From contig BPHB01000002.1 of the NCBI GenBank assembly GCA_026003335.1, forward strand, positions 496,001 to 560,000: DNA of 64,000 bases, in the 5' to 3' direction. The notes beneath the pieces are model-generated. The model saw only the letters and a list, made by a program, of their open reading frames with translations. It made no database searches and was not told the origin of the DNA. The stretch comes from Chitinophagales bacterium. Its GTDB lineage: Bacteria; Bacteroidota; Bacteroidia; Chitinophagales; CAIOSU01. The position numbers and the translations under genes were made by a program. Positions 42,449 to 45,072 of this stretch are shown here, piece by piece (within the stretch, counting starts at the first letter, position 1; each line of letters begins with the position of its first letter).

Positions 42449-42456
42449 CAAAGGTA
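42449..42456 (-). promoter_or_regulatory. -7 element of the rpsP promoter
   Basis: TACCTTTG on the minus strand is a perfect TAnnTTTG match 28 bases before rpsP. The same octamer serves the structured RNA upstream. Confidence 0.5.
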
Positions 42457-42494: not shown

Positions 42495-42972
42495 TAAAAA
42501 CAGAAACGGGAACCACCTCCTACGAAGTGATTCCCGTTTCAGCTATAGGAGGACCGTAGTCCTCTTATAGCACCAAGTTCCTAAGCTTCACCTTCCTCCT
42601 GCCTTCCTCTCGTAAAACAGGATTCCGGCTCAAGTCTCGCTTTATCCGTTTTCAGGTTTACCTTGCGGTAAGAGCCTGAAACGTGTGGCTTTGGGTCCGC
42701 TTTCGCGGAATTTAGTCGTTTCACCAGGAGTGAAACTACCCCGGCCACTGTCGGTGAAGGGCTTTCTGCCCGCCCGAAGGCTGTGGCACCAAACTGTACC
42801 GCATATCCGAAGATAGCGATCAGCTCAGAGGGACCTTGTATTGCTGACCTCGGTACAGCCTTATAAAGAACTCCTTCACACCGACCTTTTTCGCGAAACC
42901 AAGCCTTGAAGCATTGACTCAGTCCGTAGAGTGAGTAACCCTTCTCGGCTTGCCTTTTCCCTCACTTGGATA
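42495..42972 (-). ncRNA. Large structured RNA candidate, about 478 nt, class not recognised
   Basis: This is a gene-free minus-strand stretch bounded by a promoter (42976-42983) and a terminator (42496-42540). On the minus strand it is full of exact stems: CTGTACCG (42851-42858) with CGGTACAG (42794-42801); GTTTCAC/GTGAAAC (42718-42736); TCCGC-GAAA-GCGGA (42696-42709); and TTTCAGG/CCTGAAA (42650-42681), enclosing TTACC-GCAA-GGTAA. Further stems are GCCAC/GTGGC (42744-42787) and the 12-base hairpin pair at 42543-42570 closed by TACG. GAAA, GCAA and UUCG loops are typical of ornate structural RNAs. I find no tmRNA tag or CCA end, no RNase P GAGGAAAGUCC core, no SRP or 6S form, and no group II domain V. 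The function is unknown. Confidence 0.6.
42496..42540 (-). terminator. Intrinsic terminator of the structured RNA
   Basis: On the minus strand GAAACGGGAA (42531-42540) pairs with TTCCCGTTTC (42503-42512), extended by TCAC/GGTG inside. It is followed by TGTTTTT. It lies about 75 bases upstream of rpsP and separates the two transcripts. Confidence 0.7.
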
Positions 42973-42975
42973 ACC

Positions 42976-42983
42976 CAAAGGTA
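42976..42983 (-). promoter_or_regulatory. -7 promoter element of the structured RNA
   Basis: TACCTTTG on the minus strand matches TAnnTTTG exactly, and TTGACA starts 24 bases upstream of it (TTG-N21-TACCTTTG). The predicted start is near 42972. Confidence 0.5.
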
Positions 42984-43765
42984 GCATGCCTGAACCCCTG
43001 ATGTCAAGTTTTAAAGGTGATTTTTATGAACAATTTTTACACGTAAATTCCTACGAAATCCACCGGGTGTAAACCAATTATACACAAAAGAAAGCCTGGT
43101 TTTTAACTTCTCACAAAACATCACCCTTTGTGCACATTGAATATGCACTTTTGTGGGAAAACAACACCTCTTATAGTTTCCTCTTACACTCCTGAGGTAT
43201 GTGTAAGCTTACCTTAAACGGCAACGGTTAGGACCAGAAATTTTCAGCCCTTGCCATGCCTCCGATAAGGAAAGCAGGAGGGAAGCGCAAGTGTGTTTCT
43301 TTTCTTAATGGTTGCTTCATAGGCATTGACCTTTCCGGCAAAATCATGCGTGTTTGCCTTGCTACACGCCTGCTTGCCTCTACCGTTAAATTCTCTGACT
43401 TGTTCAGGGGTTTTCAAAGCAGGCATTGATCCAGTTCATCTTCACAAACGGTATTCATAACTCCCATAATCTTGAGGTAAGCTTACATCTGCTCCCCACT
43501 AAACGATTACATACCTGTAGCTTTTATTCTGCATACACTACGCCTCTTTTAATACTTGAATGAGATGAAAACACTTTCTAAGCACTACTTGGCAAACTGC
43601 CTTGTTTATTGCATGCAATATATCCTACAACAAAAGACTGTGACCTATTACCATAGGAGCAGAAGGGAATATCTGCATTCAACCTCCCCTTTTTAATAAT
43701 GCCAGATCACGAACACAAAAAGGACCTACCGTTTTGTTGTCTACCGTATTTTTTTTTAATTAGTC
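42984..43765 (+). other. Gene-poor region between the structured RNA and the DGQHR gene
   Basis: This stretch of 782 bases has no convincing coding gene. A 60-codon minus-strand frame (43244-43426) has no recognisable product. The region holds a GTGCA/TGCAC hairpin near 43134-43152, a 13-bp inverted repeat pair (listed separately) and the palindrome ATTGCATGCAAT near 43609. It is A/T-rich just before the DGQHR gene. Confidence 0.5.
43202..43487. repeat. 286-bp segment bounded by 13-bp perfect inverted repeats
   Basis: TGTAAGCTTACCT at 43202-43214 is repeated exactly, inverted, as AGGTAAGCTTACA at 43475-43487. Each copy contains the palindrome GTAAGCTTAC, so each could also be a protein-binding site. 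The segment could be a small non-autonomous mobile element or a regulatory looping region. No target-site duplication is evident. Confidence 0.45.
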
Positions 43766-44989: not shown

Positions 44990-45012
44990 AAAAGCCCCGT
45001 TAAGTACGAGGC
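44988..45012 (-). terminator. Intrinsic terminator of tracrRNA
   Basis: On the minus strand GCCTCG and CGGGGC pair (one G-T) around a 7-base loop and are followed by TTTTTTA. The T-tract overlaps the stop codon of the DGQHR gene. Confidence 0.8.
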
Positions 45013-45069
45013 AAACTTGTTGAGGCAAATCCTCACTACGGAATAATCCTTATTGTGATTTGCTTCAGA
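44988..45069 (-). ncRNA. tracrRNA of the type II CRISPR system
   Basis: The minus strand at 45053-45068 carries an anti-repeat (CTGAAGCAAATCACAA) that pairs with the first 18 bases of the crRNA repeat, GTTGTGATTTGCTTTCAG, with one bulged base. A nexus hairpin (GGATTATTCC), a second hairpin (TGAGG-ATTTG-CCTCA) and a terminator hairpin (GCCTCG/CGGGGC, 44994-45012) with T6 follow. The order and the AAGGATTATTCCG nexus are as in tracrRNAs of Bacteroidota type II-C systems. It is divergent from cas9 and is about 82 nt long. Confidence 0.9.
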
Positions 45070-45072
45070 AAC

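Follow-up and report, generated by a model that had tools for sequence, protein, structure and literature searches.

A structured noncoding RNA gene of a Chitinophagales bacterium, a likely diverged member of an undescribed family of large RNAs

Known bacterial RNA classes of the size described here are very few (examples being RNase P RNA, tmRNA, OLE, ROOL, GOLLD and HEARO), and every addition to them has opened a field. OLE, ROOL and GOLLD are large ornate RNAs of bacteria (PMC12286853), several hundred nt long, multi-branched, capped by stable tetraloops, intergenic and not protein-coding. The new RNA resembles them in all these respects but has a different core, no link to phages or tRNA islands and, as the neighbour of its homologues, a gene encoding a PIN-PhoH protein instead of the oap genes. 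HEARO and the omega RNAs of IscB and IsrB are likewise ornate, of 300+ nt, and have a gene for an RNA-guided nuclease nearby (here Cas9, by chance), whereas the RNA under study has no Rfam match and no adjoining IscB/IsrB, and its homologues do not adjoin nucleases of that type either. RNase P RNA and tmRNA are alike in size range and in their long-range closing helix; in the same genome, an RNase P-like RNA lies elsewhere, at C1:1793566-1793946 (67 bits with the type-b model, whose Rfam cut-off it does not reach), and the tmRNA at C2:354172-354541. As a rule, 6S RNAs are shorter than 200 nt. The 6S-flavo RNA (RF01685) and other noncoding RNAs of Bacteroidota (PMC2864571) share with the new RNA its free-standing nature and long closing helix, and the 6S-flavo model of Rfam gave no match at this RNA.

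The PIN-PhoH proteins act on specific RNAs as helicase-nucleases and, in the PhoAT-PhoH2 toxin-antitoxin system of mycobacteria, a small neighbouring partner has been proposed to restrain the PIN-PhoH protein (PMC7390352). This system is comparable to the loci reported here in that a PIN-PhoH helicase-nuclease is accompanied by a small neighbouring partner gene; however, the mycobacterial partner is a protein, whereas here the neighbour, a candidate partner, is an RNA. A text search of the literature retrieved no paper tying PhoH to such an RNA.

The window, i.e., the whole stretch of 64,000 nt that was analysed, belongs to Chitinophagales bacterium GCA_026003335.1 (contig BPHB01000002.1, positions 496,001-560,000, forward strand). 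The features considered are the following, in window coordinates:

43002-43007, minus strand: -33/-35 element TTGACA (sequence; 18-nt spacing to TACCTTTG)
42976-42983, minus strand: -7 element TACCTTTG, of the Bacteroidota type TAnnTTTG (sequence; TAnnTTTG also stands before the homologues)
42496-42975, minus strand: noncoding RNA of about 470-480 nt, from promoter to terminator (fold z score, homologous family with covariation, match to the covariance model R2)
42955-42969, minus strand: 5' core CCAAGUGAGGGAAAA, in the family CCAAGYGAGRGAUAAAAG (alignment and motif scan)
42964-42969, minus strand: closing helix P1, 5' strand CCAAGU (pairs with 42573-42578, mean probability 0.96)
42900-42952, minus strand: P2 hairpin domain CAAGCC...GGCUUG (pair probabilities 0.98-1.00)
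42634-42899, minus strand: variable multibranched domain with UUCG, GAAA and GCAA hairpins and a GUUUCGC/GCGAGAC closing helix (predicted fold)
42590-42629, minus strand: hairpin GCC UCCUGUUU ... AGGCAGGA GGU (pair probabilities 0.86-0.99)
42573-42578, minus strand: closing helix P1, 3' strand ACUUGG (pairs with 42964-42969; part of the conserved 3' core)
42542-42571, minus strand: 3' hairpin GCUAUA-A-GAGGAC-UACG-GUCCUC-C-UAUAGC (predicted fold; its counterpart covaries)
42496-42540, minus strand: conserved terminator hairpin of 17 bp and T-run (predicted pairs; sequence common to the homologues)
42449-42456, minus strand: second, separate TACCTTTG promoter, that of rpsP (sequence; 3' of the RNA terminator)
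44991-45072, minus strand: ordinary tracrRNA of Cas9 (anti-repeat GAAGCAAATCACAA adjoining cas9, terminator-like end ACGGGGCTTTTTT)

The initial annotation had proposed a perfect promoter octamer on the minus strand, a strong terminator and the absence of an open reading frame, and these three claims were confirmed: TACCTTTG is found at 42983-42976 with TTGACA at 43007-43002, the 17 pairs of the terminator are followed by a T-run, and no ORF of at least 60 aa occurs between 42422 and 43243. The predicted architecture comprises P1 closing round several domains, followed by a hairpin and the terminator. The 489-nt stretch folds with -204.1 kcal/mol against a mean of -157.3 (sd 7.3) for its shuffled versions (z -6.39; none of 100 shuffles as good), being ~47 kcal/mol more stable than these. 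The 3' half folds 30.6 kcal/mol more stably than its own shuffles; for 266 control stretches taken from the window, the difference from their shuffles was -0.9 on average (sd 5.2, minimum -17), and all were less extreme than this half. Folded alone, the sub-domain 42646-42750 gave a z of -5.05, and a single-sequence covariance model of it, run over 299 relatives, detected no related copy. The stems include the 8-bp helices GUUUCACU/GGUGAAAC and UCCUGUUU/AGGCAGGA and a 7-bp GUCGGUG/CACCGAC helix, among others, and the loops are UUCG, UACG, GAAA and GCAA. Of the earlier claim of at least seven exact stems, one of 8 bp spanning 65 bases, the stems themselves are present but no 8-bp stem spanning exactly 65 bases was found, the nearest element being the 5-bp GUGGC/GCCAC helix at the base of a 64-nt hairpin domain; the GAAA, GCAA and UUCG loops announced with them do appear in the predicted fold. 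It is almost certain that a structured noncoding RNA has a gene of its own at this locus.

This RNA could not be assigned to a described class. In the whole window, Rfam 15 gave no match at gathering thresholds, and at E <= 10 only noise was obtained, the best match being an Enterococcus sRNA (18.9 bits; cut-off 100), in agreement with the earlier impression of an ornate RNA in no recognised class. The covariance models of RNase P RNA and tmRNA had no match at this RNA, those of OLE, ROOL, GOLLD and HEARO matched neither it nor its homologues, and a general Rfam search of the homologues was equally negative. It is concluded that this is a class of large structured noncoding RNA that is new with respect to Rfam 15, although it may have been sighted, unlabelled, among the 224 candidates listed in 2017 (Weinberg).

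By BLAST, the RNA matched only itself in 199 relatives and had no match in plasmids, phages and E. coli genomes, and exact 15-18-mer scans of genomic and viral contigs gave matches only in coding sequence. Two matches of 26-33 nt in a BLAST search of a phylum sample were discarded as chance, being located by inspection inside ordinary protein-coding sequence. In a class-wide BLAST sample, two 39-nt matches to the terminator (E 2.8e-6 and 5.2e-5) were detected in two genomes of f95 (a working label for a bacterial family other than that of the window), and their flanks contain a full RNA with a 5' end and a closing helix as in the window RNA. With the f95 RNA as query, seven copies of 553-626 nt were retrieved from six f95 genomes, and a copy of 489 nt was found by synteny in G686. 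A covariance model of the 3' module (R2; 91 positions, eight sequences including G686, the window left out) detected an RNA of 293 nt with 5' and 3' cores in G012 (67.6 bits), one of about 613 nt in G675 (44.9 bits) and, weakly, one in G016 (26.8 bits), which is considered a tentative member; the score of G686 (67.6 bits) was obtained with a model whose training set includes it. Over 860 kb, including 40 samples of the window's genome, R2 revealed no further site of comparable score, and none of eight stretches picked by a core-motif scan of viral contigs had the 3' core. The carriers found are mostly draft genomes.

The members of this family measure about 290-630 nt and have in common only their two ends, CCAAGYGAGRGAUAAAAG at the 5' side and AGUCAUAAUAACWGUAACUUGGC at the 3' side, with G686 as the most diverged member at both. 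The order of the conserved core is promoter, 5' core, P1, 3' AUAAUAACWGUAACUUGG, a covarying hairpin and the terminator, and the interior is highly variable, made up of variable tetraloop-capped hairpins. Since only the two ends are conserved, homologues of such a large RNA can go unseen. TAnnTTTG stands before the RNA at the same distance as in the window in all seven f95 copies, G686 and G012, and the -33 region of the homologues contains TTTGG at about the place of the window's TTGACA. An insert of ~30 nt, CGC[A/G]AAGCTTCGGCAGAGCAA, is common to the RNAs of G865a and G763 (L098, L100), where it occupies different hairpins, as if it were mobile between peripheral stems.

Evidence that these molecules act as RNA was provided by covariation. 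In an alignment of the seven f95 sequences (A2, mean column identity 65%), 44 of the 120 pairs of the consensus structure show compensatory changes on both sides. When a stated structure of 95 pairs including P1 was evaluated on the f95 alignment, 94.6% of the cells were paired and 37 pairs had changed on both sides, compared to 33-48% of cells and 6-11 doubly changed pairs when the 3' partners were slid by 1-3 columns; the observed values were reached in none of 500 shuffles. Because this alignment also contributed to the definition of the structure, the slid control is somewhat in its favour; the margin is nonetheless large. P1 is the same helix across f95 with an outer pair that is U-G, C-G or U-A depending on the sequence. 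With the window RNA included, the hairpin and terminator have 95.4% of cells paired and 10 of 24 pairs doubly changed, and in nine aligned sequences the counterpart of the 3' hairpin changed on both sides in eight of its nine pairs. Homologues and covarying stems, which the initial annotation had named among its checks, were in this way both obtained.

Judged from its sequence, the window RNA is very likely a diverged member of this previously undescribed family. R2, built without the window, matches it with 49.7 bits (E 1.2e-9, full length), and the antisense strand, with its palindromic terminator, scores only 27 bits, which indicates that the score is due in part to the terminator, the remainder coming from the adjoining GAAGC..AGGAACUUGG and hairpin. 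TAnnTTTG precedes the 5' core CCAAGYGAGRGAnAAA by a few nt, a closing helix joins this core to the ACUUGG near the 3' end, and the hairpin and conserved terminator are those recognised by the window-free model. The window has a single occurrence of the motif CAAG[TC][GA]AG[AG]GA..AAA, at the start of the RNA; among the other loci compared, this motif is confined to members of the family and to viral contigs picked for it. The AUAAUAAC segment of the 3' core is deleted in the window RNA; as it is mostly deleted in G686 too, it was not used as a defining feature.

Alternatively, the window RNA could be real and structured and yet stand outside the PhoH-linked family, its terminator and short 5' motif representing convergence or a recycled terminator. 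In this sense, only the core and terminator are in common with the other copies, nhmmer matched the window RNA at its 3' end only, with no recognisable homology in an interior that cannot be aligned, a forced alignment with the homologues gave 41-50% identity, and the terminator, as stated, contributes to the R2 score. Such an origin is nevertheless unlikely: promoter, 5' core, P1, hairpin and terminator agree in order and place, the forward score is well above that of the palindrome alone, and the single core motif of the window coincides with the beginning of the RNA.

Every copy outside the window (the seven of f95, G686, G675, G012 and the tentative G016) adjoins a gene whose protein has the domains PF13638 and PF02562 (PIN_4-PhoH), in three arrangements. 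All seven f95 RNAs and that of G686 are divergent from the PIN-PhoH gene, their 5' motif lying upstream of it by about 290-320 nt (by 852 in G763). The RNA of G012, and tentatively that of G016, is on the strand of the gene and comes before it, and the RNA of G675 comes after the gene. G675, G012 and G016 were sought only around PhoH genes, and the f95 set (7/7, related copies), which was found by sequence alone, is consequently the unbiased part of this sample. When the ~10 kb flanking 37 PhoH genes on either side were scanned, no further site of comparable score appeared. Within this limited sample the association is strong. The window copy is not beside a PIN-PhoH gene, and the PhoH gene of its own genome (C1:286814) had no RNA match within 10 kb on either side. 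PIN-PhoH is present in 43 of the 63 genomes examined and the RNA was detected in few, meaning that PhoH does not generally need it.

It could also be argued that what these loci share is a DNA element, such as a replication origin or a DnaA-regulated region beside PhoH, of which the RNA would be a passenger. The kilobase upstream of PIN-PhoH contains TTATNCACA boxes at about five times the density of the surroundings (9 in 53 kb vs 24 in 693 kb), and G012 has three of them just upstream of the RNA promoter (L185 2519-2561). Conversely, most f95 copies are devoid of DnaA boxes, the GC skew, as sampled along the window's genome, has near PhoH a change of sign in the direction expected of a terminus, and covariation at the RNA level needs a transcript, all of which makes a passenger RNA improbable.

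Altogether, the best explanation, and a likely one, is that of a free-standing structured-RNA gene that is a diverged member of an undescribed large-RNA family with a presumed role in a ribonucleoprotein (RNP). The conserved ends, joined by P1, enclose a conserved purine-rich internal loop beside this helix that may constitute the binding site, and the interior, varying so that the RNA measures from 290 to 630 nt, would be a replaceable scaffold, by analogy with known RNPs. The RNA is probably an RNP component acting in trans as a stable scaffold, and the PIN-PhoH protein, in which a hexameric RNA helicase is joined to a PIN ribonuclease, is the leading candidate for its partner. A structured RNA beside this gene may be the cofactor, the substrate or the restraint of its product, which it could regulate or recruit in the manner of an RNA cofactor or decoy. 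A functional tie between RNA and PIN-PhoH is a tentative proposal for the family as a whole, and a rather unlikely one for the non-adjacent copy of the window; that the new class forms a dedicated RNP with the PIN-PhoH helicase-nuclease in several Bacteroidota lineages is, for the moment, speculative. If this were true, the widespread and poorly understood PIN-PhoH would gain a partner made of RNA, be it a cofactor, a guide, a decoy or an RNA antitoxin. The sharp conserved core, the real covariation and a recurring neighbour of known biochemistry make the function directly testable.

Concerning the immediate surroundings of the window copy, the RNA lies directly upstream of rpsP on the same strand and had been viewed as a possible housekeeping RNA next to this gene. 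Its action as a cis-regulatory leader of rpsP, or of an rpsP-rimM operon, is however most improbable: the strong terminator ends the RNA before the TACCTTTG promoter of rpsP, the homologues are not upstream of rpsP, and neither six genomes of the same family nor others of the order have such an RNA or leader at this place. The defence link that had also been suggested fared no better. With cas9 about 2.1 kb away and the RNA divergent from a DGQHR/DndB-like gene, it might have been part of a Cas9/DGQHR island, a role that is highly implausible in view of the separate tracrRNA (44991-45072), of the anti-repeat to the CRISPR repeat, for which the one strong match beyond the array falls at 45072 and not within the RNA, and of the homologous RNAs, which are not at CRISPR loci. 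A connection with the DGQHR gene itself was rejected, as neither CRISPR nor the RNA adjoins its homologues (58-60% identity, three genomes); these homologues (L061-L063, one genus) are flanked by a metal-transport-like gene set on one side and an asparaginase-like gene on the other. The rpsP and CRISPR neighbours of the window copy look incidental and, given that this copy is not at PhoH and that rpsP in the relatives is without such an RNA, its setting looks like a relocation or insertion.

Some minor observations were made in the same region and genome. A TTATNCACA-type box, one of only four in the window, is found at 43078-43086, ~70 bp upstream of the TTGACA of the RNA, and DnaA-type TTATNCACA boxes are also present upstream of PIN-PhoH in the window's own genome (L175). 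Further upstream, at 43202-43487, a segment of 286 bp that is single-copy in the genome (BLAST) has 16-nt inverted ends, TGTAAGCTTACCTTAA and TTGAGGTAAGCTTACA, which are 94% complementary, and it is possibly the remnant of a dead mobile element.
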